NCBI GenBank assembly: GCA_022824225.1 | Contig: JAJEAH010000086.1 | Span: 1 to 38,812, forward strand | DNA length: 38,812 nucleotides | Direction: 5' to 3' | DNA from: Chloroflexota bacterium | GTDB taxonomy: Bacteria; Chloroflexota; UBA11872; VXOZ01 | Part shown: positions 132 to 21,250 of the stretch, piece by piece | Layout of the letters: each line of letters opens with the position of its first letter | How positions within the stretch are numbered: the stretch's first letter is position 1 | Notes under the pieces: generated by a model | Databases searched by the model: none | Told to the model about the DNA's origin: nothing | What the model saw: only the letters and a program-made list of their open reading frames with translations | Position numbers and translations under genes: made by a program

Positions 132-1466
132 CTAGAATACGCCGATGTAGGTATCCAGCTCCCACTGGCTCACGCTCAGGTGGTAGCGGTTCCACTCATC
201 GCGCTTGACGGCAATGAAGTAGTCGGCGTACTCGCGGCCTAGTGCTTCCTTGAGAACGTCGTCCTTGTCCAGTTCGTCCAGTGCCTCGGGGAGGCTGGTG
301 GGCAGGAAGGTGATGCCGCGGCGGCGGAGTTCGTCTTCGTCGAGTTCGTAGAGGTTGTCGTCGTTGCGCACGCCGGGGTCCATCTTATTGGCGATGCCGT
401 CGAGGCCGGCGGCGAGCAGCACGGTGTATGCCAGATAAGGATTCGTCGCGCCGTCCACAATGCGGTTCTCGATGCGTCCCGGATCGGGGATGCGGATCAT
501 CTGGGTGCGGTTGGAGCCGCCGTACGTGCCGTACACCGGCGCCCACGACGCGCCGGAGCGCGGCTGGCCGCGGATGAGGCGCTTATAGCTGTTGACGATG
601 GGGCAGGTAACGGCAGTGAGCGCGCGGGCGTGGTGCAGGACGCCGCCGGTGAACCAGTACGCAAGCTGGGAAAGTCCGTTCTCGTCGTCTTCATCCAGGA
701 AGAGGTTGGTGGTATTGGCCGGGTCCCACAAGCTCACGTGGCAGTGCGCGCCGTTGCCGGTCAGGTTTTGGAACGGCTTGGGCATGAACGTGGCCGTGAG
801 TCCGTTTTCCTCAGCGACCGTCTTGACCATCCACCGGAAGAACGTGTGGCGGTCGGCGGTCGTGAGCGCGTCCGAATAGAGCCAGTTGAGCTCGAACTGG
901 CAGGTGGCATCCTCGTGGTCGGACGCATACGGCTCCCAACCCAGTTCCTGCATATGACCCACCAGCGTGGTAATGACGTCCAGGTTTCGGTAGAGCGCGC
1001 GCACGTCGTAGCAGGGCTTGTCGAGCGTATCCAGCGCGTCCCAGGGCGCATAGCCGCCGTTTTCGTCTTGCTTGAGCAGCATGAACTCGGCTTCGGTGCC
1101 CACGTTCATGAGGTAGCCCGCCTGCGCTGCCTTATCCAGTTGTTGCTGCAGAATGGTGCGCGGGCCGTAGTGCCAGGGAACGTCGTTGACGTGGATGTTG
1201 CCGGACACCCAGGCGATGTCGGGACGCCACGGCAGGATGAGAAGCGAATTGAAGTCCGGGTGGCAGAGCATGTCGGGGTCGTGGGGACTCTGGCCCATCT
1301 CGCCGGCGGCAAACCCGGCAAAGCCGGCGCTGCCGTCGGCCATGTCGTCCACGTGGGTCGCGGGAATCAACTTTGCCTTGGGCGCGCCGCTCATTTCCAC
1401 ATAGGAACAGAGAAAGAACTTGATGCCGCGCTCCGCTATAAGCGCTTTCACTTGGTCGAGTGTCAT
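132..1466 (-). CDS. gmaS: Gamma-glutamylmethylamide synthetase (glutamine synthetase family)
   Basis: A cytoplasmic glutamine-synthetase-fold ligase of 444 aa. By family and context it joins methylamine to the gamma-carboxyl of glutamate using ATP, the first step of the NMG pathway. Visible landmarks are the metal-ligand motif EAEF (125-128), DHEDATCQFELN (183-194), NLTGNGAHCHVSLWD (234-248), the SYKR and PRSGASWAP segments (293-310) and RIENRIVDGATNPYL (331-345). The start at 1466 is chosen because GGGAGG lies about 8 nt upstream; an in-frame upstream extension to 1553 runs into the mgdA tail and has no conserved sequence. It is the last gene of the operon, 19 nt after mgdA. Sequence alone cannot exclude an ordinary GlnA-type synthetase or another gamma-glutamyl-amine ligase. 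The link to complete mgs and mgd gene sets is what makes GmaS the best call. Confidence 0.85.
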   Translation of the reverse strand: MTLDQVKALIAERGIKFFLCSYVEMSGAPKAKLIPATHVDDMADGSAGFAGFAAGEMGQSPHDPDMLCHPDFNSLLILPWRPDIAWVSGNIHVNDVPWHYGPRTILQQQLDKAAQAGYLMNVGTEAEFMLLKQDENGGYAPWDALDTLDKPCYDVRALYRNLDVITTLVGHMQELGWEPYASDHEDATCQFELNWLYSDALTTADRHTFFRWMVKTVAEENGLTATFMPKPFQNLTGNGAHCHVSLWDPANTTNLFLDEDDENGLSQLAYWFTGGVLHHARALTAVTCPIVNSYKRLIRGQPRSGASWAPVYGTYGGSNRTQMIRIPDPGRIENRIVDGATNPYLAYTVLLAAGLDGIANKMDPGVRNDDNLYELDEDELRRRGITFLPTSLPEALDELDKDDVLKEALGREYADYFIAVKRDEWNRYHLSVSQWELDTYIGVF

Positions 1467-1485
1467 CGCTGAACCTCCCACTAAA

Positions 1486-2751
1486 CTAGTGTGACACTGC
1501 TGCCGCCGCTTTCTCTCCCACCAGGGTCTCGTTGCGGAAGCGGGAGAGGGCAAATGGTTCGATGAGTTCCGGCGTCTTGCCGGTCGCTATGCATTCCGCC
1601 AGGTACTTGCCTGCCACAGGTCCCGCCTTGAAACCGTACGTACCCCAGCCCACGTCCAGATAGTAACCCTCCAGGCCCTCCACGCCGCCGATGATGGGTG
1701 AAAAGTCCGGGGTCATATCGCAAATGCCGGCCCATTGCCGCAAGACGCTCACGTTGTGCAACTGCGGAAATAGCTCCAACGTGTAGGTCGCCATCTGTTC
1801 GAGCGTCGGCAGTGTGCCCAACATGCTGTACGACTGGAGCGGGTCCACCTCCGCGCCCATGACCAGGTCGCCCCGGTCGGTCTGGCTGACGTAGACGTGC
1901 AGATTCGCCGAGACGATCACCTTGTCGAGAAACGGTTTGAGCGGTTCGGTCACGCAAGCCTGCAACGGCTGGGTCACGATGGGCAGGGAGACCCCGGCCA
2001 TGCGTGAAACCACCGTTGCCCAGCCGGCGGTGCAGTTCACTACCGTCTTGGCGGCGATGCCGCCCTTGGCGGTCTCCACACCGGTGATCTTACCCTCCGG
2101 CGGCTCGATGCCGGGCGGCGTGTCAGCGGCGTTTCGGCTCGCGGGGCCGGTCGCGTGAATGTCTGTTGCTTCCGTGAACGGGTGAATCTCGATACCCATG
2201 CGGTCACACGCCCGGGCGTAGCCCCAGACAACGGCGTCATGCCGGATGATGCCTCCCGGCGGATGGTAGAGCGCGGCCAGCACCGGCAGGCGCGGCCGGT
2301 CGCTCATGTCCAGGGCCGGCACCAGTTTCGCGATCTCGTCGCGATAGATCACCCGGCTGTCCACACCCATAATCTGGTTGGTCTCGGCGCGCACGCGCAG
2401 GCCGTCCACCGAAGAGTCCGTATGCGCCAGTGTCAGGTGGCCGCACTGGTTGAAGAGCAGATTCCACTCGAGCTCACGTGACAAGCTCTCATAGAGGGCC
2501 AACGAACGGGCGAAGAACGGCACGCCCTCCGGCGTACGGTAGTTGGCGCGGATGATGGCGGTGTTGCGCCCGGAATTTCCGGCGCCAAGGTAGCTCTTTT
2601 CCAGCACCGCCACGTTCGTAATGCCGTGGTCTTTGCCGAGATAGTATGCCGTGGCGAGACCGTGTACGCCCGCGCCGATGATGACGACGTCGTAGCTGCG
2701 CTGCAGGTCGTGCGTACGCCACATCCGTTCCTTGCGAAACAACTGGATCAT
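1486..2751 (-). CDS. mgdA: N-methylglutamate dehydrogenase subunit A (sarcosine oxidase beta-like)
   Basis: A 421-aa FAD-dependent amine oxidoreductase of the SoxB/DAO family, the substrate-oxidising subunit of the MgdABCD complex. The N-terminal dinucleotide-binding motif is GAGVHG (26-31), followed by an acidic residue after VAVLE. H171 in RHDAVVWGYAR lines up with the histidine that carries covalent FMN in sarcosine oxidase beta subunits (family knowledge). The C-terminal WGTYGFKAGPVAG segment is the usual FAD-closing motif. The ATG at 2749-2751 overlaps the mgdD stop as ATGA, so translational coupling decides the start; in-frame codons further upstream lie inside mgdD. The length matches SoxB proteins. 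A true sarcosine oxidase is the alternative, but the adjacent gmaS and mgs genes argue for N-methylglutamate as substrate. Confidence 0.82.
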   Translation of the reverse strand: MIQLFRKERMWRTHDLQRSYDVVIIGAGVHGLATAYYLGKDHGITNVAVLEKSYLGAGNSGRNTAIIRANYRTPEGVPFFARSLALYESLSRELEWNLLFNQCGHLTLAHTDSSVDGLRVRAETNQIMGVDSRVIYRDEIAKLVPALDMSDRPRLPVLAALYHPPGGIIRHDAVVWGYARACDRMGIEIHPFTEATDIHATGPASRNAADTPPGIEPPEGKITGVETAKGGIAAKTVVNCTAGWATVVSRMAGVSLPIVTQPLQACVTEPLKPFLDKVIVSANLHVYVSQTDRGDLVMGAEVDPLQSYSMLGTLPTLEQMATYTLELFPQLHNVSVLRQWAGICDMTPDFSPIIGGVEGLEGYYLDVGWGTYGFKAGPVAGKYLAECIATGKTPELIEPFALSRFRNETLVGEKAAAAVSH

Positions 2752-3458
2752 CGGTCGCCTGCTTGCTGGTCTGCCACTGCCGCGCTGCCTACTGGCATTA
2801 TGCCCAAATGACGGCCGGTTTGCAGGATTGCATCCCAGGCATACTCGGCGTATTCGGCGCCGACAAGCAGACGATACGCGAGCACTCCCGCCATATCGCG
2901 GCGCAACACCCGCGCATGGAGACCGGCGACTCTGGCGCTGAGGCACGATTCGTTTGGGAGCGCGCCGTCAGAGACATCAGGCGCCGCGAGTCTCTGCAGG
3001 ACTTCACGGCTCGCGGGCCCCGCAAGGAGCAAGGCGGCGTAGACCGACGTGACGTCTGTGGTGTGGAGGCATGGCGTTTGCGACTGGGCCTCCGGTTTCA
3101 CTGGGCTTTCGGGTTCGCCGGTAGTTTGCGCGACGAACCCCGCGATGGCTGCGACTAGAGCGTTCTTGTCCGGCGGATCGCACGTGATCAGTGAATGTCC
3201 CCTACCCAAATGCCAGGCGTTGCCCGCGGGGAGCCGCAGCGCCCGCAGGAACTGCGTCCGGCCCTTCACTTCCAGCTTGGTCAGCCAGGAGACGTCGGCG
3301 AGTCCCGCGTTGGTTGTCAGGACCTCTCGTTCACTCTCGTGACTGCCAAAGCGCGCGGCAACTTCCCAGCCGTGAACGACACCTAGGGTTGCGCCCCGCT
3401 TGCGGGCGGCGTGGTAGAGGGGTGACCGTTTCAGGGGTTCTTGTGCCGCCATTTTCAT
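2748..3458 (-). CDS. mgdD: N-methylglutamate dehydrogenase subunit D (sarcosine oxidase gamma-like)
   Basis: A 236-aa protein of the SoxG/GcvT-like fold, the small gamma-type subunit of the heterotetrameric dehydrogenase. Recognisable family features are the opening SPLYHAARKRGATLGVV, the GLADVSWLTKLEVKG block (about 52-66) and a C-terminal GLHARVLRRDMAGVLAYRLLV segment read in two halves. A Pro/Glu/Gln-rich stretch at about 113-128 looks like a lineage-specific insertion. The gene overlaps mgdC upstream (ATGA at 3455-3458) and mgdA downstream (ATGA at 2748-2751), so all three are probably made in fixed ratio by coupled translation. This subunit diverges fast in the family, so position in the operon carries much of the weight. 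Confidence 0.75.
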   Translation of the reverse strand: MKMAAQEPLKRSPLYHAARKRGATLGVVHGWEVAARFGSHESEREVLTTNAGLADVSWLTKLEVKGRTQFLRALRLPAGNAWHLGRGHSLITCDPPDKNALVAAIAGFVAQTTGEPESPVKPEAQSQTPCLHTTDVTSVYAALLLAGPASREVLQRLAAPDVSDGALPNESCLSARVAGLHARVLRRDMAGVLAYRLLVGAEYAEYAWDAILQTGRHLGIMPVGSAAVADQQAGDR

Positions 3459-6247
3459 TGCCGTAGCCGCTCCTGCGCCGGATCGTAGAAGGGCTGGTCC
3501 GCGATTGTGGCCGTGACGAGCCGGCCGTTGACGCGCATGCCGATGGTCCCGCCTGCCGCCGCGAGGTCTGCGGACACCCAGGCCAAGCCAATGACCTTCT
3601 CGTTCACCGGCGAGTGGCGCACGCTCGTGATGCGGCCCGCCGGCCGGTCGTCTGCGATTATCACGCAGCCGTCGGGCGGCAGCACGTTGTCATCCATGAC
3701 GAAGCCCACGAGCTTTTCGCGGGGCGGCCGGGCTTGAGCGCGGCTGATGGCGGCCTTGCCGATGAAGTCTCCCTTGTCGAGCTTCGCGACCCAGGCCAAG
3801 TCGGATTCGATAGGATTGCTCGTTGCGTCAGTATCGACGCTTACGATCACGTGTTTCTTCTCAAGACGCAGCACGCGTTGGGTTTCCACGCCGAAAGGCC
3901 GGATGTCGAATTCCTTGCCGGCTGCCATGATGGCGTCCCACACGTGCTCGCCGTGCTCCGCCGGATAGTGCACTTCCCAGCCGGTTTCCCCGACGAAGCC
4001 GATTCGCAACATGAGGCTGGGTACACCCGCCACCTGGGCGCGGCGGCAGCGCATGTAGCCGAAACGCCGGTTGCCGAGGTCGCGGTCGGTCAGCTTTGCC
4101 AGCGTGTCACGGGCCTTGGGCCCGGCCACGTTCACGGCAGCCAGGCCGCCGGTCACATTCGTCACGTGCACGCACCAACCGCTGCCAGCCTGCCACCATT
4201 CCAGCCACTCCTGCACGAATTCGATGTTGCCGGTGGTAGTGGTAATGAAGTAGCGGTCGTCGGCTACGCGGGAGACCGTGCCGTCGTCCAGGATAATGCC
4301 CGCTTCATCGCAGATCACGCCGTAGCGGGCGCGGCCCACGCGCAAGTCCGAAAACCGGTTCGTGTAAACTTTGTCCAGCAGCTTGCCGGCATCGGCGCCG
4401 ACGACTTCCAGCTTGCCGAGTGTGCTCAAGTCTATCAGGCCGACCCGCTGCCGCACGGCCCAGTACTCTTGCTCCACCGACGCTTGCTTGCTCTCCGGCG
4501 CGCCGTAGTAGAGCGGCCGCTTCCACTCGCCCATATCCATCCAAACACAGCCAAGCTCGTCGTGCTTCGCGTGCAAGGGCGTGCGTTTGACCGGATGCAG
4601 GTGCGGACCGGCGAGCGCGCCCAGAGGCACTGGGGCGGTCGGCGGACGCGAGGTTGTCCGGCCCGTTTCCCGCACCGTGCGGCCAGTTTCTTGGGCGCAC
4701 ACGTCGATGGCGGCCTGCTTGCACATCTTGCCCTGGCAGGGCCCCATGGTGGTTGTGGTATAGCGCTTGAGCGTCTCGATGTGATCGAAGCCTTCGGCGA
4801 TGGCGGTGGACAGGTCGTGGAGCGATACGTCCTCACAGGGGCACACGAAAGTCTTCTTGGCATTGGCGCCGTTCTTCCTTGCCGTGTCCAGGCTTGGCGG
4901 CAGCCCGGCGCCGGTTGCCGCGCCGACTGCCGTGACGCCGGGGGGTAGCGCGCCGGTGGCGAACACGCCGCGAGCTTCATCCCATTCGATTTGGCCGCCG
5001 GCCTGCGCCGCGAGTCCGGCGTCCGGCGCCCAGTTGCCGCACACAACGACCAGATCGCAGGCAAGCAATTCAGTAGTAGTCTTGAGGCCGGTCACGTGCT
5101 TGCCGCCAACGGCTTTGACGACGTCTGCTGGACCAACGACACCCGCAACCGTGACGCCGGCGGCCTGTAGGGCTTGGGAAGTTGATTCCGCTCGCTCTGC
5201 TTGGCCGACGACGACCGCGCGTTCACCGGGCTTGACCCCGTGCAGACCGATGAGGCGCAGAGCGCCGCTGCTCAACATAACTCCCGGCAGGTCGTTATTC
5301 TCGAAGAGCAGCGGAGCTTCACTCGCGCCGGTGGCGACGACAATCTGGTCTGTCCGCAGTTGCGTGAGCCGCTGGGCGGCAGGAGAGTCCAGCCCGCGGT
5401 GGGCGATGGCGAGGAGGTTTCCCTCATAGACGCCAAAGCACGTGGCGTCGGTATAGACGGTGATCTGGGGGTGGTCCAATACGCGGCTGATGACCGCGGC
5501 GAGGGCTGATTCGTCCGTGTCTCCGGTGAATGCTTTGGGTAGCGTGCTGTTTTCACCAGGCGCGTACCGCAAATGCCCGCCCAGGGCCGGTTGGTCGTCA
5601 ATTAGGACAACGTCTTCACCACGCTCGGCTGCGTCGAGCGCGGCCTGCAGGCCGAACGGGCCCCCACCGACTACTGTCGTTTCGGTATGCGCGAACACAT
5701 GCTCATAGTCGTGGTTGGCCTCCGGCCTGAATTCGCGGTCAATGCGCCCCAGACCCGCGGCGCGGCGAATGAGGGGCTCGGCGATTCGCCACATCCACGG
5801 GTGCGTAAACGTCTTGTAGTAGAAGCCCACCGGCATGGCCCAGGAAAAGCGCTCGGCAAGGGACATGAAGTCGGTGTCCAACGATGGGTACGCGTTTTGG
5901 TGGGTCACCTGCATGCCGGCCTGGACCGGCTGCGTGCAGGCGCGCACGTTCGGCGTGCCGTCCACGTTCATCAAGCAGTTGGGGCACTTTCCCGCAACGC
6001 ACAGCAGGCCGCGGGGACGGTGGTACTTGAAGCTGCGGCTGAACGTACGGCGACCGGCGCGGTAGAGCGCCGACGCTACCGTGTCTTGGGGCAAGGCTTG
6101 GATGGGTCTGCCATTGAAGGAGAAAGTGACGGGTGATTGCCGGGTACTTCCGGCGTTGGTGCTTACGGAGTTTGGGGATGTCGATGATTCGTCACTCCCG
6201 CGCGGGCTGGCCCCGTGCCGATGCGCGGAATCCGTCTTGTCGCTCAC
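3455..6247 (-). CDS. mgdC: N-methylglutamate dehydrogenase subunit C (sarcosine oxidase alpha-like)
   Basis: A 930-aa multidomain subunit. After a low-complexity Ser/Thr-rich N terminus comes a ferredoxin-like Fer2_4 domain (about 40-125; cysteines 83, 88, 91 and 104 in LLCVAGKCPNCLM and VRAC). Next is an FAD/NAD-binding domain (GGGPFG at 194-199), a BFD-like cysteine region (CPCEDVS and GPCQGKMC, about 470-525) and a C-terminal GcvT/aminomethyltransferase module (about 580-920). In sarcosine oxidase the GcvT module passes the methyl-derived C1 to tetrahydrofolate, so 5,10-methylene-THF is a likely product (inference). The start is GTG, overlapping the mgdB stop as GTGA, with GAGGAGG about 6 nt upstream. 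The length and domain order match SoxA. It is the largest subunit and the scaffold of MgdABCD. Confidence 0.85.
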   Translation of the reverse strand: MSDKTDSAHRHGASPRGSDESSTSPNSVSTNAGSTRQSPVTFSFNGRPIQALPQDTVASALYRAGRRTFSRSFKYHRPRGLLCVAGKCPNCLMNVDGTPNVRACTQPVQAGMQVTHQNAYPSLDTDFMSLAERFSWAMPVGFYYKTFTHPWMWRIAEPLIRRAAGLGRIDREFRPEANHDYEHVFAHTETTVVGGGPFGLQAALDAAERGEDVVLIDDQPALGGHLRYAPGENSTLPKAFTGDTDESALAAVISRVLDHPQITVYTDATCFGVYEGNLLAIAHRGLDSPAAQRLTQLRTDQIVVATGASEAPLLFENNDLPGVMLSSGALRLIGLHGVKPGERAVVVGQAERAESTSQALQAAGVTVAGVVGPADVVKAVGGKHVTGLKTTTELLACDLVVVCGNWAPDAGLAAQAGGQIEWDEARGVFATGALPPGVTAVGAATGAGLPPSLDTARKNGANAKKTFVCPCEDVSLHDLSTAIAEGFDHIETLKRYTTTTMGPCQGKMCKQAAIDVCAQETGRTVRETGRTTSRPPTAPVPLGALAGPHLHPVKRTPLHAKHDELGCVWMDMGEWKRPLYYGAPESKQASVEQEYWAVRQRVGLIDLSTLGKLEVVGADAGKLLDKVYTNRFSDLRVGRARYGVICDEAGIILDDGTVSRVADDRYFITTTTGNIEFVQEWLEWWQAGSGWCVHVTNVTGGLAAVNVAGPKARDTLAKLTDRDLGNRRFGYMRCRRAQVAGVPSLMLRIGFVGETGWEVHYPAEHGEHVWDAIMAAGKEFDIRPFGVETQRVLRLEKKHVIVSVDTDATSNPIESDLAWVAKLDKGDFIGKAAISRAQARPPREKLVGFVMDDNVLPPDGCVIIADDRPAGRITSVRHSPVNEKVIGLAWVSADLAAAGGTIGMRVNGRLVTATIADQPFYDPAQERLRQ

Positions 6248-6504
6248 GGCGCCTCCTCGGGCAGGCTGGTCTCAGTGACCTCATTGGTAAGCGTATCCCG
6301 CATGGCAAAGAACCATTGCCGGCAACCATGGGTGTGGTACCACCACTCCTTTTGCGGACGCTCGCGGTTTGCGGTGGCGTAGCTGTAGCTTAGCCAGGCC
6401 TCGGCGGTCGACCCTGGCGCGGGCCGCGACTTTACCTCGCCGCCAAAGCGAAACTCATAGACGCTGCGCTTACCGCAGTTAGGACAAGGAATCAAGAATG
6501 ACAT
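6244..6504 (-). CDS. mgdB: N-methylglutamate dehydrogenase subunit B (sarcosine oxidase delta-like)
   Basis: An 86-aa zinc-binding delta-type subunit. The N-terminal CPNCG (C7, C10) and the C-terminal HTHGC (H57/H59, C61) provide the Cys2-His-Cys zinc site known in SoxD, and YEFRFGGE and EWWYH are family blocks. A modest SD (GGTGA) precedes the ATG. It is translationally coupled to mgdC by a GTGA overlap. It is the first gene of the mgd half of the operon but is separated from mgsC by the AAA/TOPRIM cassette plus an 88-bp spacer (6505-6592), in which I see no gene. Confidence 0.85.
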   Translation of the reverse strand: MSFLIPCPNCGKRSVYEFRFGGEVKSRPAPGSTAEAWLSYSYATANRERPQKEWWYHTHGCRQWFFAMRDTLTNEVTETSLPEEAP

Positions 6505-6592
6505 AGGTTCACCGGGAATTTCGGTGTGTTTCTTCTAACGTCAATGCGTGCTGCAATCCGAGACTGACCCACGTGCGATGCACCTACAACTC

Positions 6593-7132
6593 TCAGGTAA
6601 TCTCAAGGTGTTTCCTGCAAAAGTACGCAAGTGACTCGTTCTTTCGCTGGGCGATGTCCAAAGAAAATTTCTTGAGGACATCCATCCTAAAGTCTATCTC
6701 AGAATTGTACATATCAGGGAGGAGCCGCTTGAACTGTTCCTTGGTGACGGAGTTTGTATTCTGAAACTCCCGAATGCCGAGAGCCGCACACGCCTTACCG
6801 TCTAGTCCAGCGAGGTACCAAGCCTCGATCTCAGGGGCTACCACCATAATTCTATCCGGTTGCAGGAGGGGATGCCTGCGAATAGCCGCGTCTTTCTTCT
6901 TGGTCACACAGGGGTGCACTTCTGAGTCAAGATCGGCGCACCACAGGTAATCCAGAATTGCATGCGACCGCGTGACCTCATGCAGTTTCTTGTTTATTGA
7001 ATCAGTGGATCGCTCCGCATAGGAACTCTTGAAAACTCTCTCGTACTTTCTACCCAAATGAGGCTCCAGAGCCCTCTCAAAGAATAGCTCATCGGAAGGT
7101 CCCTCAAGCCACACGAAGAGTATCTTGGGCAT
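6593..7132 (-). CDS. TOPRIM-like protein (DUF4276-type), partner of an AAA ATPase
   Basis: A 179-aa protein whose layout fits a small TOPRIM-like nuclease fold. It has an N-terminal strand ending in E10-G-P-S-D14, an internal D67-L-D69-S-E71 acidic cluster, and P100-E-I-E-A-W (E101, E103), a motif I associate with DUF4276 proteins. The gene starts 3 nt after the stop of the AAA ATPase, so the two form a unit. Such AAA plus TOPRIM pairs (OLD/Gabija-, PARIS- and AbiL-like) are known anti-phage or abortive-infection modules, in which the ATPase senses and the TOPRIM protein cuts nucleic acid. The specific role here is inference. Base composition is lower in GC than the surrounding mgs/mgd genes, suggesting recent acquisition. 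A DUF4435-like (AriB) assignment is less likely because the protein is shorter. Confidence 0.7.
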   Translation of the reverse strand: MPKILFVWLEGPSDELFFERALEPHLGRKYERVFKSSYAERSTDSINKKLHEVTRSHAILDYLWCADLDSEVHPCVTKKKDAAIRRHPLLQPDRIMVVAPEIEAWYLAGLDGKACAALGIREFQNTNSVTKEQFKRLLPDMYNSEIDFRMDVLKKFSLDIAQRKNESLAYFCRKHLEIT

Positions 7133-7135
7133 TCA

Positions 7136-8434
7136 CTAGACTTCCAGCAAGTCGTCAACGTAGAGCTGATCGATGCCAATATCGTTTTCGAGGAAACGCT
7201 TTACCATAGTCTTGTCAGCCGGGCGTGAAATCTGCGAGAAGCCATTCTCGTCGCGAGAGACGAAGAGAAGGTTCTCAACGCCAGCGTAGCGCACCATCTC
7301 AGGATGGTGGGTCGTGACGATAATCTGTTTCCTCTCTGACACCTCCTTCATCATCTCCACCATGCGGGACATCAGCTTAGGGTGCATTGCCCGGTCAGGA
7401 TCCTCAAATATCAGAAGAGAGTTTTCCTCAAAATAGAGTGCAACAACGAGCGCGATTGCGGCTACTGTCCCCTCAGACATCATGCCGGCGTAGAGTTGCG
7501 TCTCATCCGTGAAGACCTCCTTCACATAAAGTGAGGAAGACTCATCTGTTACGTTCTGAACACCTATGTCATTGATAAACGGCAAGAGATATCTGACAAG
7601 GTTTAGAAATGTCTTGCGCGAATTCCCGTCGGAGAGGATTCGATCCAGCACTGGCGCAAGGTTCGAAGCGCTTTCGGTGAGTGCCGCAGATGCCCGAATC
7701 GACTGGGACTGACGGGATACTCTCGGATCAGCACGGTAGATGCCTGGATCACGTATAGTGCTGAACGGCGGGGCAATTGACCCCGTGAGCAGATAGGTGA
7801 ATAACCGCGACTCTAAGAGCAACGAATCCTTCGGAAACAAGTCTGAGTCAAAGTGTCCGACTTCCTTCTTCTCGTTAAGGAGTTCAATGAGGGATTTGTC
7901 TCCGTGATACGCTCGTTTTAGGGTGTTTTCCTCTCGCCAAGCCGAGAACTCTAACGTGCCAATCAGACCTTTCGCATGGGCCCTATCGTCATCTCTTGCC
8001 CGACTAGGATAGACGGAGAAGTCTCGCGCAACGCGATCACGTTGTATACTCCAGTTGTCAGCATGGGGGACACGGTTCTCCGCTGGAAAGTCAAGCGAGA
8101 AGCCATAGTACATATTATTGACACGTACAAAATACCGTGTCTCCTCATCATGAGTCGACACCACTTCATATGCGATATCTTGTACGTCAGTGATGTCCAT
8201 ACTAAGCGGTACTGTCGTCCCTATGCGAAGGTTTTGAGCATAGCGGCTACCGCCTTGCAGTGCTACGGCGTTGCGCAAACCATCCTTGCGGATGTCTCTC
8301 AGAAAGCGGAATATCTCGACGAAATTCGATTTTCCAGAAGCATTAGCGCCGATGAGCACGTTGAAGTCGCCAAGCTCAACGTCTAACTTGTTGAAGCTGC
8401 GGAAGTTGGAGACTTTGAGACGGCGGATAGCCAT
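7136..8434 (-). CDS. AAA/OLD-type ATPase (AAA_21 family), defence-like
   Basis: A 432-aa SMC/ABC-like ATPase. It opens with the typical LKVSNFRSFNKLDVELGDF, followed by Walker A GANASGKSN (29-37). A signature-like MMSEGTVAAIAL lies at 318-329, Walker B SLLIFEDPDRAMHP at 339-352 (E344/D345) and the switch motif IIVTTHHPEMV at 371-381. The insert between Walker A and the signature is moderate, as in AAA_21 proteins, with no fused nuclease domain. It begins 18 nt after the mgsC stop on the same strand, so it is probably read from the methylamine operon promoter; its own SD is weak. My counts in 60-base lines (7201: 32 GC, 7381: 28, 8101: 24) are below a line of mgsC (8881: 39), pointing to transfer. 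With the TOPRIM partner it looks like a two-gene immune module. DNA repair is a less likely alternative. Confidence 0.8.
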   Translation of the reverse strand: MAIRRLKVSNFRSFNKLDVELGDFNVLIGANASGKSNFVEIFRFLRDIRKDGLRNAVALQGGSRYAQNLRIGTTVPLSMDITDVQDIAYEVVSTHDEETRYFVRVNNMYYGFSLDFPAENRVPHADNWSIQRDRVARDFSVYPSRARDDDRAHAKGLIGTLEFSAWREENTLKRAYHGDKSLIELLNEKKEVGHFDSDLFPKDSLLLESRLFTYLLTGSIAPPFSTIRDPGIYRADPRVSRQSQSIRASAALTESASNLAPVLDRILSDGNSRKTFLNLVRYLLPFINDIGVQNVTDESSSLYVKEVFTDETQLYAGMMSEGTVAAIALVVALYFEENSLLIFEDPDRAMHPKLMSRMVEMMKEVSERKQIIVTTHHPEMVRYAGVENLLFVSRDENGFSQISRPADKTMVKRFLENDIGIDQLYVDDLLEV

Positions 8435-8452
8435 AGGAGCAGGCTTTCTTGC

Positions 8453-9802
8453 CTAATGCCCGCGCTCATCCCAGCCCGGGCCGCCGCCGACGATGCGGTT
8501 TGTGCCCACCAGCGGAATGCCGCAGATCATCGAGGCCTCGCCGGTCAGGGCGCGCAGGTCGTCCGGGTCCAGGTCGTGCACGTCGGCTTTGCCGCAGGCG
8601 CGCGCCAGCATCTGCATCTCCGAGACCATGGAGCGCAGGAAGCTGGTGACACGTTCGGCGGCCTCGTCGATGGGCAGCCGTTGCATGAGGTCCGGGTCCT
8701 GTGTCGTGATACCCACCGGACAGCGCCCCGTGTGGCAGTGGTGACAGAAACCCGGCTTCGTGCCTAGCTTCTCGTAGTCTTCCACGTATAGAGAGCGATT
8801 GCAATTGAGCGCGATGAGAGCGGACGTGCCGATGTAGACCGCATCGGCGCCGAGCGCAAGGGCTTTCGCGGCGTCCACGCCGTGGCGAATGCCGCCGGCA
8901 ATGATGAGTTGCACTTCCCCGTACAGGCCCAGGTCTTCCAACGCGGCGCGCGCCTCGCACACGGCGGCCAGGGTGGGAATACCGGTGTGTTCCTGGAGCA
9001 TCTCCGGCGACGCTCCGGTGCCGCCTTCCATGCCGTCCACGACTACAGCGTCGGCTCCCGCTTTGGCGGCCAGGCGCACGTCATCGAATACGCGGGTAGC
9101 GCCCATCTTGATGAAGATTGGCACCCGCCAGTCCGTGGCTTCCCGGAGTTCCTCCACTTTGATAATCATGTCGTCGGGACCCAGAAAGTCCGGATGCCGC
9201 GCCGGGCTGCGCTGATCGACTCCAATGGGCAAGTCACGCTGTTCGGCAATCACGTCCGAGACCTTGGAACCAAGGAGCAGCCCGCCGGTGCCGGGCTTGG
9301 CGCCTTGGCCAATAGTCAGTTCGATGGCGTCCGCGGCGCGGGCGTGGTGGATGCTCACCCCGTAGCGGGACGGTAGCACTTCGTAGACCAGGGTCTTGCT
9401 ATGTTCGCGTTCGGCTTCCAGCATGCCGCCGTCGCCGGTTGTATTCGAGGAGCCCACCGCAGCCGCGCCCTGGGCCAGCGCGACCTTCGCGTTATACGAA
9501 AGCGCGCCCCAACTCATGCCCGTGATCATGATGGGTATGTCGAGCTTGATCGGCTGTTCGGCATACCGGCTGCCAATGACGGTCGTCGTCGAGCAGTGCT
9601 CGCGGTAGCCTTCCAGAGGTATGCGCGTGAGTGTGCAGGGGAGAAATGTAAGGTCGTCGAAAGTTGCCCAGTTCCGTTCGCGCAGCGTCCCGTAGCCCCG
9701 CATGAGATAGCGGCCCAGTTGCGCTTTCTCTTGGATTTCGGCGATTATCTCAGGCGAATAGGTTCCACTGGCGCGCAGCCGGCCGTTCTCGCCGTCTGAC
9801 AT
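8453..9802 (-). CDS. mgsC: N-methylglutamate synthase subunit C (FMN glutamate synthase domain)
   Basis: A 449-aa TIM-barrel flavoprotein equivalent to the FMN-binding synthase domain of glutamate synthase. Visible motifs are QGAKPGTGG (166-174), DGMEGGTGASP (256-266), GGIRHG (303-308) and the iron-sulfur cysteines C353, C356 and C361 in CHHCHTGRCPVGI. With MgsA and MgsB it transfers methylamine from gamma-glutamylmethylamide to 2-oxoglutarate, giving N-methylglutamate (known for the pathway). GAGGAG precedes the ATG by about 9 nt. It is separated from mgsB by a 277-bp spacer, unusual in an otherwise tight operon. GlxD of rhizobial glx clusters belongs to the same family; the presence of gmaS favours MgsC. 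Confidence 0.85.
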   Translation of the reverse strand: MSDGENGRLRASGTYSPEIIAEIQEKAQLGRYLMRGYGTLRERNWATFDDLTFLPCTLTRIPLEGYREHCSTTTVIGSRYAEQPIKLDIPIMITGMSWGALSYNAKVALAQGAAAVGSSNTTGDGGMLEAEREHSKTLVYEVLPSRYGVSIHHARAADAIELTIGQGAKPGTGGLLLGSKVSDVIAEQRDLPIGVDQRSPARHPDFLGPDDMIIKVEELREATDWRVPIFIKMGATRVFDDVRLAAKAGADAVVVDGMEGGTGASPEMLQEHTGIPTLAAVCEARAALEDLGLYGEVQLIIAGGIRHGVDAAKALALGADAVYIGTSALIALNCNRSLYVEDYEKLGTKPGFCHHCHTGRCPVGITTQDPDLMQRLPIDEAAERVTSFLRSMVSEMQMLARACGKADVHDLDPDDLRALTGEASMICGIPLVGTNRIVGGGPGWDERGH

Positions 9803-10079: not shown

Positions 10080-10793
10080 TTAGACTACCTGCTGCCAGAC
10101 TTCCCAATCAGTCTTGTCAAAATTCCACAGGCGGCGGCCGGACTGAACTTTCTTGAATTCCTTGAGCCGCGCCTGCAACTCGGTCAATCGGTCGGGCAAG
10201 TGTTCCGCAAAGCTTGCTTCCAGATAGGCCGCGTCGTCGTTGGTAAGGTCCGCGATCACCGCGTCATTGCCCAGGTCTTCGATTTTTCCGCCAACGTAGC
10301 ACACTGTCTCGTACATAGAGTCCGCAAAGGCCTCACCCACGTCGCCGCACACAACGATAGCGCCCCGCTGCCCCATGAAACCGGCCATGTAGCCGCAATT
10401 GCCGCCAATCAAGAGCAAGCCGCCTTTCATGGCGACACCGGCGCGGGCGGCGGCATGGCGGTGAATGACCACGGTGCCTCCGCGTATAGTGGCCGCGGCG
10501 CCGTTGCCTGCGCTGCCGTGCACGACCACCGTGCCGGAGAGCATCGATTCCGCCAGGCCCCAGCCGGTGCTTCCCTCGATCTGTACCGTGGCGCCGTCCA
10601 TCAGGCCGCCGCAGAAGTACCCCACACTGCCGTCAAAAGTCACTGTGGCGGGTTCCAGCAGCGCAACGCCCAAGTTGTGCCGGGCGCCGGGATTGCGCAC
10701 GAGCACGTCACTTTCACCGGCGGCGATGGCTTGCTTGATGGCAGTATTGATCTCGCGGATCGACTTGCCGGCGCAATCTAGTTCAACTGCCAT
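10080..10793 (-). CDS. mgsB: N-methylglutamate synthase subunit B (GXGXG domain)
   Basis: A 237-aa right-handed beta-helix protein like the C-terminal GXGXG domain of glutamate synthase and GlxC. The repeated short turns are visible at about 50-165 (VGYFCGGLMDG, STGWGLAESM, SAGNGAAATIRGG, GGNCGYMAGFMGQRG, GDVGEAFADSM). This domain has a structural role, coupling the amidotransferase (MgsA) to the synthase subunit (MgsC). The ATG at 10791-10793 lies inside the end of mgsA (16-nt overlap), so the two are translationally coupled. The C-terminal tail of about 60 aa (LTNDDAAYLEASFAEHLPD onward) is longer than the bare domain but usual for GlxC/MgsB. Confidence 0.83.
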   Translation of the reverse strand: MAVELDCAGKSIREINTAIKQAIAAGESDVLVRNPGARHNLGVALLEPATVTFDGSVGYFCGGLMDGATVQIEGSTGWGLAESMLSGTVVVHGSAGNGAAATIRGGTVVIHRHAAARAGVAMKGGLLLIGGNCGYMAGFMGQRGAIVVCGDVGEAFADSMYETVCYVGGKIEDLGNDAVIADLTNDDAAYLEASFAEHLPDRLTELQARLKEFKKVQSGRRLWNFDKTDWEVWQQVV

Positions 10794-11689
10794 ACCTGGA
10801 CTTCCTTGGCTTGGGCCTCGCGCACGCCGCCAATGCCCGGAAACGCGCTCTCGATGGCGATTTCTTCAGTGGCGACGACAACGGTGTCATCGGTTTCGGT
10901 AAAGAGGAGCGGCTTGAGGGCAAAACGGTCTTTGGCAAAGCCCAATTCGTTCTGCGTGGCGGCCAAGTAGCTGAAGGAGCCGTCGAGGTCGTACAAAGAG
11001 GCGTCGAGCGCCTCTCGCAGCGACATGCCCTGGGCGAGGCGGTCGGCGAGATACACGCCAATTACTTCCGAGTCGTTGTCGGTGTAGAAGCGAATGCCGT
11101 GTTGTTCATAGCGGCGGCGCAGATTGTGGTAATTCGTGATATGCCCATTGTGGACCACTGCCAAGTCCGGCACGCCGTGGGCCCAGAACGGTTGTGAGTG
11201 GCTGAGGTCTACTTTGGATTCGGTGGAAAGGCGCGTATGCCCAATGCCGTGGGTGCCGGTGATGCGGGAAACGCCGTGGGTCTCCTCGAGGTTCTGCGGC
11301 GAGCCAACTTGCTTCACGATTTCCAGGGCGTTCCCCAGGCTAACCACTTCGACGTCAGCCGCTTCGGATTCGATGAGCGCGCTGAGCCGCGCGGCATCGC
11401 CCTGGTAGTCGAGTTCCAGGCGCAAGTATTCATCCGTGGTAGAAATGTCGAGAATCTCACCCAGGTCTTGCACCCGCGCGGCAATGCCCTCACGGCGCAA
11501 TTCGAATTCACCATTCTCGCCCAGCTTGACCCGCAACACGGAGCGGCGCCTTGAAGGCGGCGAATAGAGGGCGACGCCCGCCGAATCCGGCCCGCGGCAC
11601 GCCAGGGCATCGAGCATGGTGAGCACGGTCTTACCGACCGGCGCTTGCCCGGCGGCTGCCTTGTCCAAAAATCCAATGATGCCGCACAT
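10778..11689 (-). CDS. mgsA: N-methylglutamate synthase subunit A (class II glutamine amidotransferase)
   Basis: A 303-aa class II (Ntn) amidotransferase domain like GlxB. Cys2 directly after the initiator Met is the expected nucleophile (MCGIIGF). RGPDSAG (about 33-39), GIGHTRLSTES (about 147-157), HSQPF and HNGHITN (about 178-184) are the glutamine-site motifs. In MgsABC it would release methylamine from gamma-glutamylmethylamide for channelling to the synthase subunit. AAGGGA lies about 9 nt upstream of the ATG. It is the first gene of the operon and overlaps mgsB. The insert between the PDSAG and HTRLS motifs, of about 100 aa, is typical of the stand-alone subunits and not of glutamate synthase itself. 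Confidence 0.85.
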   Translation of the reverse strand: MCGIIGFLDKAAAGQAPVGKTVLTMLDALACRGPDSAGVALYSPPSRRRSVLRVKLGENGEFELRREGIAARVQDLGEILDISTTDEYLRLELDYQGDAARLSALIESEAADVEVVSLGNALEIVKQVGSPQNLEETHGVSRITGTHGIGHTRLSTESKVDLSHSQPFWAHGVPDLAVVHNGHITNYHNLRRRYEQHGIRFYTDNDSEVIGVYLADRLAQGMSLREALDASLYDLDGSFSYLAATQNELGFAKDRFALKPLLFTETDDTVVVATEEIAIESAFPGIGGVREAQAKEVQVWQLN

Positions 11690-19320: not shown

Positions 19321-19654
19321 CCGGGAGGAGTTCTCCCCGGTTGGGAGCGGCGGCTTGACAGGGGCGTAAGGTCGCATCTGCCCGGTTGGACGGTAGTTCG
19401 TCGGCGGTAGACGTTGCCGTGGTCAGGAAGGCCCTCAAAGTAGTAGCGCGTTTTTCGTTCGCGTGGGGCGCTCGATTTCAGATGGCGACGGCAACTGTAG
19501 TAGAGTTAGGTGAACGTCTGCGCGGTCTGGCAACCAAGACGTCACGTATGCGGTTCGGCCAGGCAGCGAGGGTCTAGGAACGATCGCAAGCGGTGGGAGA
19601 CCTCCTGGCGGTTAGCAGGAAGTGTCGCGCTGTGCCAAGAGCAGGGAGGCAGCC
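19321..19654. other. Intergenic, with a terminator-like hairpin
   Basis: Immediately after the metallohydrolase stop, 19321-19340 can fold into a CCGGG...CCCGG-type stem with one mismatch and little loop. It lacks a T-run, so it is only a candidate terminator. The remainder of this 334-bp stretch shows no gene or clear regulatory site. Confidence 0.3.
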
Positions 19655-21250
19655 TTGCAACCGCTATTGATGTTTACCGCCGCGGCGGCGCCGGGCCTTG
19701 CGCTCATTTGGTACTTGCACGCCCGACCGCAATATCCGCAATCCCCGGCCATACTCTGGGCAACGTTGGGCCTGGGCATTCTCGCCACGTTCCCGGCTAT
19801 TGTTTTGGCCTTTCCCGTCTCAATCCTATTTCCCGTAGTCTTTGATCTTACGAACAGTACGCTCCTCGTCATTGTGGTGCAGGCGCTCCTGGTCGCGGCG
19901 GTTTTGCAGGAGTCCTTCAAGTATGTCGTGCTGGCAAACTACTCCTGCCAGCGTAGGCGGCTGGCCGAGCCCTTCGACGGTGTCGTGTACGGTGTGGCCG
20001 CTTCCTTGGGCTTCGCCACGCTGGCGAATATCTCATTCGTCATCGAGGGCGATACGCTGGGCGCGTGGCTGCGGGCCTTGACCTCAGTGCCCATGCACGG
20101 CGCTTTGGGCGCAATCATGGGGTACTACCTGGCCCAGAACGCCTTCTCGGCCGACGGCAGCAAGCGCGCTGCGCGCTTGGCTTGGCTGGCGCCGGTGTCC
20201 CTGCACGCCGTCTACGAATTCCCATTGCTTACGGGCATACCGTGGTTGTTGCCGCTCTCCCTTGTTGTGCTCGCCTTGGCGCTGTTCTGGGCCTGGCGCC
20301 TTGTGGGACGGGTGCAATCCGGACAGCGCCGCCGCAGTGTGGCGATTTGGGGCGAATCCGGCTCGAAGCCGCGCCAGTTTAGTTCGCCGCATGCCGTCGC
20401 GTTGGATGCTGAAGGCAACGTGTACGTGGCGGATACCTTGAATAACCGCGTACAGAAGCTCTCGCCCGCGGGCGATGCCGCGGCCGAATGGGGCACCACC
20501 GGACAGGGGCCTGGCGAGTTCCGGTCGCCCCACGCCCTAACCATTGACGCGGAAGGCAACATACTGGTCGCCGATACGCTCAACCACCGGGTGCAAAAGC
20601 TGTCGCCGGAGGGCAAAGCGCTCGGCCAGTGGGGCGAGCAAGGCGCAAAGCCCGCGCAGTTTCGGTCGCCAAGCGGCGTGGGCGTGGACGCCAGGGGCAA
20701 CATCTATGTGGCTGACACCGGAAACCATCGCATTCAAAAGCTCTCGCCGGACGGCGAACTGCTAGCCATTTGGGGAGCGCACGGCAGCGAGCCGGGTGAA
20801 TTCCGCGCGCCCGTGGGGGTTGCCGTGGACTACGAAGGCTGGGTCTATGTATCTGATTCCGGCAACCACCGCATCCAGAAACTCTCGGCAGATGGCGAAC
20901 CCACGCAGCATTGGGGCGAGGAGGGCACCGAACCGGGGCAGTTTCGCAATCCCAACGGCATTGCCCTCGACCGACGCGGCAGAATCTACGTGGCTGACAC
21001 GTGGAACAATCGCATACAGGAACTATCGGCCGCGGGCGAGCCGCTCTTCCAGTGGGGTGTGTTGGTAGCGGGACGGCAGGGACAGTTCGAAGACCCGTGC
21101 GGGATTGCCGTTGACGAACTGAACCACGTCTACGTGGCCGATACGGGCAACGACTGCATCCACAAGCTCCACCCGTTCAGCACACTCATGTCGAGCCCGG
21201 AAGCAGAAAGCGCCGAGGAGGCCGAGGCGTCGCCTGCCGAGGCGGAATAG
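19655..21250 (+). CDS. PrsW-like intramembrane protease domain fused to six NHL repeats
   Basis: A 531-aa fusion. The first 220 residues are hydrophobic with several membrane segments and the PrsW pattern: a motif 1 region QESFK (85-89), EPFDGVVYGVAASLGF (105-120), a motif 3 histidine in MHGALGAIMGYYLA (H148) and a later HAVYEF. The first Glu of the usual EExxK is Gln, and the Glu expected in the FxxxEN region is Ala (ATLANI), so proteolysis may be lost. From about 223 there are six tandem repeats of about 47 aa (WGxxG..PGQFR.P.GIA.D..GN.YVADT.N.RIQKLS), a complete NHL propeller, then an acidic Glu/Ala tail. TTG at 19655 is chosen because GGAGG lies 5 nt upstream; a GTG at 19622 and an ATG at 19670 are alternatives. 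It is likely a membrane sensor or scaffold with an outside or inside propeller. Confidence 0.75.
   Translation: MQPLLMFTAAAAPGLALIWYLHARPQYPQSPAILWATLGLGILATFPAIVLAFPVSILFPVVFDLTNSTLLVIVVQALLVAAVLQESFKYVVLANYSCQRRRLAEPFDGVVYGVAASLGFATLANISFVIEGDTLGAWLRALTSVPMHGALGAIMGYYLAQNAFSADGSKRAARLAWLAPVSLHAVYEFPLLTGIPWLLPLSLVVLALALFWAWRLVGRVQSGQRRRSVAIWGESGSKPRQFSSPHAVALDAEGNVYVADTLNNRVQKLSPAGDAAAEWGTTGQGPGEFRSPHALTIDAEGNILVADTLNHRVQKLSPEGKALGQWGEQGAKPAQFRSPSGVGVDARGNIYVADTGNHRIQKLSPDGELLAIWGAHGSEPGEFRAPVGVAVDYEGWVYVSDSGNHRIQKLSADGEPTQHWGEEGTEPGQFRNPNGIALDRRGRIYVADTWNNRIQELSAAGEPLFQWGVLVAGRQGQFEDPCGIAVDELNHVYVADTGNDCIHKLHPFSTLMSSPEAESAEEAEASPAEAE

Follow-up and report, generated by a model that had tools for sequence, protein, structure and literature searches.

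A putative split OLD-like ATPase–TOPRIM nuclease pair as an accessory of a methylamine operon in Chloroflexota

Between two intact genes of a methylamine-type operon in a Chloroflexota bacterium lie two adjoining genes which we interpret as an accessory cassette at the mgsC–mgdB junction, a split, OLD-like nuclease gated by its ATPase and likely employed in defence. We assign this explanation, taken as a whole, a probability of roughly 0.55. The window, by which we mean the whole analysed stretch of 38,812 nucleotides, carries the operon on its minus strand in the order mgsA, mgsB, mgsC, ATPase, partner, mgdB, mgdC, mgdD, mgdA-like DAO gene and glutamine synthetase, with the following features.

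10080..11689, minus strand: mgsB and mgsA (domain matches)
8453..9802, minus strand: mgsC, glutamate-synthase-like FMN domain, intact, upstream neighbour of the pair (Pfam Glu_synthase, 5.4e-97)
8435..8452: gap of 18 nt from the mgsC stop to the ATPase start, without a terminator-like site on the operon strand
7136..8434, minus strand: ABC/OLD-type ATPase, 432 aa, putative sensor/regulator subunit (Pfam AAA_21, HEC-01A, Foldseek)
6593..7132, minus strand: TOPRIM nuclease partner, 179 aa, putative effector (AlphaFold2, Foldseek, hhalign, conserved residues)
6505..6592: gap of 88 nt from the partner stop to the mgdB start
6244..6504, minus strand: mgdB, SoxD-like, intact, downstream neighbour of the pair (Pfam SoxD, 6.3e-25)
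3455..6247, minus strand: mgdC, SoxA-like (domain match)
1486-2946, minus strand: DAO gene, SoxB/mgdA-like (domain match)
132-1553, minus strand: type III glutamine synthetase (domain match)

The assignment of the operon to the methylamine (N-methylglutamate) type is supported by the mgsA, mgsB and mgsC domains, the SoxD-, SoxA- and SoxG-like subunits, the DAO gene and the glutamine synthetase. A sequence-only reading had placed the pair on the same strand as its intact neighbours and had described it as less GC-rich than the flanks. The open reading frames and Pfam domains confirm the arrangement in every particular checked, mgsC and mgdB being of full length with intact domains despite the pair between them, and the difference in composition is borne out by a GC content of 0.508 in the ATPase gene and 0.500 in the partner gene against 0.60–0.65 in all eight operon genes, and by a GC3 of 0.59–0.60 against 0.70–0.83. 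The two genes of the pair are 3 nt apart by their ORF coordinates. A promoter scan of the junction returned one promoter-like site, a number not above that of shuffled sequence, the terminator-like sites found there lie on the other strand only, and a search of the junction for RNA elements in Rfam gave no match. Judged by spacing and strand, the pair is probably read from the operon promoter and co-transcribed with the metabolic genes. Insertion by a mobile element was considered and rejected: an integrase or transposase ORF and a flanking repeat are both absent from the junction, where the repeat scan yielded only matches of 12–14 nt, approximately at chance level. The idea that the pair stands in for mgdA was likewise discarded, since the SoxB-like DAO gene is present. 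Elsewhere in the window, an ORF at 19622-21250 joins a PrsW-like protease part to a ScyF/NHL-like part, which is an unusual combination.

The 179-aa partner is in all probability a TOPRIM nuclease, a conclusion based on its BpOLD-like residues, its fold hits and the family matches of its relatives. All the acidic motifs that had been noticed by eye are in place, namely E10, D14, D67-L-D69 and E101-I-E103, and they are accompanied by K131. E10, G11, D67, E101, E103 and K131 are invariant in 62 relatives and D14 is nearly so, the invariance of E101 and E103 being partly ascertained by search patterns that contained this motif; position 69 is Asp in 39 relatives and Asn in 23. As E10, D14, D67 and K131 lay outside those patterns, their conservation is no effect of ascertainment. 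By order and spacing rather than superposition, E10, D14, D67, D69, E101, E103 and K131 correspond to BpOLD E400, E404, D455, D457, T506, E508 and K562, the residues of its two-metal site (PMC6755086). The AlphaFold2 model of the partner (pLDDT 94.2) has an alternating alpha/beta core with strands at residues 4-9, 32-37, 60-67 and 95-98 and helices at 12-26, 43-55 and 76-86. E10 ends the first strand and D67/D69 end the third, as in TOPRIM domains, and D14, E101, E103 and K131 would provide the second-metal residues and the lysine of the OLD type. In the PDB, Foldseek gave GajA as the sole sensible match (probability 0.84, TMq 0.48, with a weak E of 0.057), and among viral models an RloB-like protein (probability 0.98).

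Profile comparisons place the partner in the same neighbourhood. Against a small DUF4276-type set hhalign reached 95% probability (E 3e-8); the corresponding value was 11% against the OLD TOPRIM, where the motifs aligned in register, and did not exceed 0.3% against eight unrelated operon proteins. Pfam and NCBIfam models gave the protein no name, and a PDB search for its sequence relatives returned none. Its earlier designation as ‘DUF4276-type’ is upheld by the profile–profile result and through the relatives and does not extend to the window protein itself, which scores 15.3 bits against DUF4276 (PF14103), under the Pfam gathering cut-off of 30.2; we keep it as a weakly supported label. The 62 relatives match OLD-like_TOPRIM (20), DUF4276 (18), DUF3226 (17) and DUF4435 (6), and also the models HEC-01B (59), AriB (18) and mad4 (16). 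The structure prediction and HMM searches that the sequence-only reading had proposed thus support the TOPRIM fold and did not reveal its absence, and fold, active site and relatives' families agree with its notion of an AAA ATPase coupled to a TOPRIM protein.

The ATPase matches Pfam AAA_21 (8.6e-31), and its best PADLOC family is HEC-01A (2.7e-44); it scores 118.7 bits with the MADS mad3 model (NCBIfam NF047739), under the threshold of 420. The predicted ABC/OLD motifs were recovered: Walker A (GANASGKS), the signature (MSEGT) and the H-loop (TTHHPE) are all intact, and Walker B reads FEDPD (residues 343-347, window 7394-7408), with Asp at position 345, the usual place of the catalytic Glu. 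This Asp occurs only in the window and in one genome of the same genus (G004), while 47 of the 49 aligned rows have Glu, and it may slow hydrolysis. The ATPase shares 40–83% identity with relatives having the same partner. Its structural model (pLDDT 84.6) retrieved PtuA, the T. scotoductus OLD protein, GajA, and Rad50 and SMC heads, with E of about 1e-11 to 1e-12.

That the two proteins belong together is evident from their distribution. A partner profile search of GTDB genomes found 74 loci in many bacterial and archaeal phyla, and in 70 of these the partner gene is directly preceded by an ATPase ORF of the same strand, the gap usually being −4 to +12 nt; the pair is therefore one two-gene module, with separate ORFs for ATPase and partner in the window as well as at the related loci. 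Its synteny is kept inside the Halanaerobium, Methanolinea and Ignavibacteria groups. Transport and metabolism account for most of the 122 genes neighbouring the module at 33 loci, and PADLOC matches are few among them, the commonest being mad3 (5 matches), which are likely general ABC ATPases; clustering with defence genes was not observed in this set. Phage and plasmid records in annotated collections contained no close homologue of the pair. A distant copy is present in the viral contig IMGVR_UViG_3300011829_000020 (L121:6727-8519), and the source genome of the window also bears a canonical AAA + DUF4276 pair (L200:3832-5708, G000:C56), beside sugar-metabolism genes.

What could such a module do? 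We consider it probable that it is an ATPase-gated, split OLD-like system. The ATPase, resembling the RecF/SMC/OLD type of head, would most likely assemble with the small two-metal TOPRIM nuclease and restrain it, a step proposed by analogy with the sequestration of AriB by AriA in PARIS. On sensing some trigger, or a changed nucleotide state, the ATPase would then allow the nuclease to act on DNA or RNA, tRNA, the known target of AriB-type enzymes, being a candidate RNA substrate. In the lineage of the window, the most likely use of this activity would be to protect the cell from phages or other invading elements. The weak Foldseek E value of the partner, the fact that 23 of 62 relatives have Asn at position 69, and the Asp in Walker B of the ATPase count against this explanation.

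Split ATPase–TOPRIM systems are already known, and the pair is a new variant of this kind. The closest known system is PADLOC HEC-01, a Hma-embedded candidate, which likewise consists of two adjacent genes whose models are matched by the ATPase and by 59 of the 62 partner relatives, although the window partner itself matches HEC-01B weakly (6.7e-5) and the clade of the module is, in one archaeal family, resident rather than island-bound. In the literature examined we found no assay of HEC-01, which is a candidate class, and we know of no phage assay for the family to which the pair belongs. Several Hma-embedded candidates, including HEC-06, are reported in a paper on archaeal immunity to have antiviral activity (PMC12988326). 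PARIS, the ‘class 4 OLD’ composed of the ABC ATPase AriA and the TOPRIM tRNase AriB, shares the split into adjacent genes, and AriB is matched by 18 of the 62 partner relatives; the window partner, however, has no AriB or DUF4435 match at the thresholds used and is not placed among AriB effectors. The AriA hexamer of PARIS keeps AriB sequestered, and a phage protein acts as the trigger of its release (PMC12409363). The OLD classes 1–3 and Gabija GajA also combine an ABC ATPase with TOPRIM and have a matching set of two-metal residues, and the folds match 6P74 and GajA, but these are single chains in place of two genes, and the pair lacks an adjoining retron RT or GajB helicase gene. The pairs of DUF4276 with AAA_21 have the same motif order, yet in the archaeal family of a Methanoregula genome the distribution is opposite, with the module in 71 of 100 genomes and canonical DUF4276, at scattered sites, in 17 of the same 100. 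Finally, Cran1 (class 5 OLD) of Sulfolobales resembles the pair, by description, as an OLD-family ATPase–nuclease stably kept in an archaeal lineage, and differs from it in being one chain; it is apparently not a defence protein, and a housekeeping role has been proposed for it (PMC12796447).

The pair is accessory in the window genus and discordant with the operon phylogeny. Of the window genome and five further genomes (G001, G002, G003, G004 and G005), only the window and G004 carry it, at the same junction. In G001, G002, G003 and G005 mgsC is followed by mgdB after merely 157–238 nt, so the insertion is real; the pair is absent elsewhere in these genomes, and remnants of it in the empty junctions did not rise above noise. 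The window occupies the outermost position in the operon tree and G004 is nested among the others; the presence pattern hence needs either two losses or two gains. This comparison of junctions had been suggested as a check on the sequence-only reading, and carriage by all related genomes with matching phylogeny, which would have spoken against an inserted module, was not seen. Between the two carriers dS is 0.45 in the ATPase gene versus 0.73–1.33 in mgsA, mgsB, mgsC, mgdC and glutamine synthetase (mgdA was left out as unreliable, owing to a frame problem), the synonymous sites of the partner gene are saturated, and nucleotide identity drops sharply, from roughly 0.85 to roughly 0.6, where the ATPase and partner genes meet. 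These patterns of substitution are best explained if the locus underwent recombination or transfer, probably with exchange of the partner allele. The ATPase dN/dS of 0.21 indicates purifying selection.

Whether defence is the main role is an evenly balanced question. It is favoured by the kinship of the pair to HEC-01, PARIS, MADS and OLD, by its accessory and recombining character in the genus, and by the distant copy in a viral contig. The label ‘anti-phage’ is less sure, because HEC-01 is a candidate system, the neighbours are metabolic, and the module is near-core in the family of the Methanoregula genome. The last observation speaks for a possible but doubtful alternative, in which the same biochemistry serves a cellular task such as replication, repair, or chromosome or RNA turnover, and what is seen in Chloroflexota is a patchy remnant or a local loan. 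Each of the 71 archaeal genomes has exactly one copy, and at 14 of 20 sampled loci (L201-L220) the downstream gene is the same; the conserved downstream genes are of the flavodiiron/ODP type, then a desulfoferrodoxin, then a TrkH-like protein. The synteny within the three groups named above, the scarcity of defence neighbours and the precedent of Cran1 point in the same direction. Against a housekeeping nuclease count the absence of the pair from four of the six genomes of the window genus, the recombination between carriers, and the absence at E 1e-25 from 395 of 400 sampled genomes of the phylum, the exceptions being the window, G004, G246, G288 and G163. In the family of a Halanaerobium genome the module occurs in 4 of 14 genomes, and the shortened partner that is all two of these have also counts against this reading: in L116 and L117, at about 8010-8279, an 89-aa partner ORF follows an intact ATPase, which suggests decay of the nuclease gene. 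A narrower version, which we think unlikely, combines the single-copy, syntenic and near-core state in Methanoregulaceae-type methanogens, beside genes detoxifying oxygen and superoxide, with the lodging in a formaldehyde-generating operon of Chloroflexota, and would give the clade a conserved cellular role in handling nucleic-acid damage instead of phage defence.

We find it quite improbable that the pair is a selfish or toxin–antitoxin-like module that harms cells losing it and offers no protection from phages. Its layout of effector and regulator in two genes, its patchy presence and its recombination would suit such a module, and Pfam annotates AAA_21 as a putative AbiEii toxin of a type IV toxin–antitoxin system. 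AbiEii is a nucleotidyltransferase; the partner is a nuclease by its active site, so that the Pfam label is merely a name. Moreover, two losses (or gains) within one genus have left no visible remnants, and in the archaeal family the module has resided at one site in single copy over the long term.

The same junction is occupied in a second Chloroflexota family of the same class, represented by G246 and G288, where the pair is again found between mgsC and mgdB. In these genomes an ORF of about 600 aa resembling homocysteine S-methyltransferase plus methyltransferase precedes the pair in the junction (L044:6586-8379, L045:3973-5826). In concatenated trees of ATPase and partner the four pairs embedded in operons group together as a single clade (99/92 under the mixture model, 99/95 under LG), and the tree of the ATPase alone does not unite the copies of the two families. 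The likely though not certain history on the phylogenetic evidence is a single ancient insertion followed by losses, or else a transfer that included the flanks; two independent insertions, a possible alternative given the long branches and biased composition, are suggested by the ATPase-only tree but not by the concatenated ones. A functional part in methylamine metabolism, as regulator of the operon or RNA processor, could be read from the shared junction, the common clade and the 1-nt spacing of partner and mgdB in L110, and is nevertheless highly improbable, given that four of the eight operons of the window type lack the pair (the remaining mgsABC clusters of the class being of another type), that the mgs/mgd operon surrounds only the Chloroflexota loci L047, L050 and L110 and is missing from the other 71 of the 74, that the partner has a catalytic nuclease site, that the proteins of the pair have diverged much faster between the families than mgsC, mgsA and mgsB, and that the ATPase tree separates their copies.

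Viewed as a split, ATPase-gated cassette, the pair offers a clean two-gene module of about 430 + 180 aa for studying how an ATPase gates a minimal TOPRIM nuclease. Specialists will probably be most surprised by what lies outside the window, namely that a module accessory in one Chloroflexota genus is near-core in an archaeal family. It thereby provides a test case for the question of whether every OLD-type nuclease serves in defence: with its near-fixed residence in a family of methanogenic archaea, the job of the module may go beyond antiviral protection.
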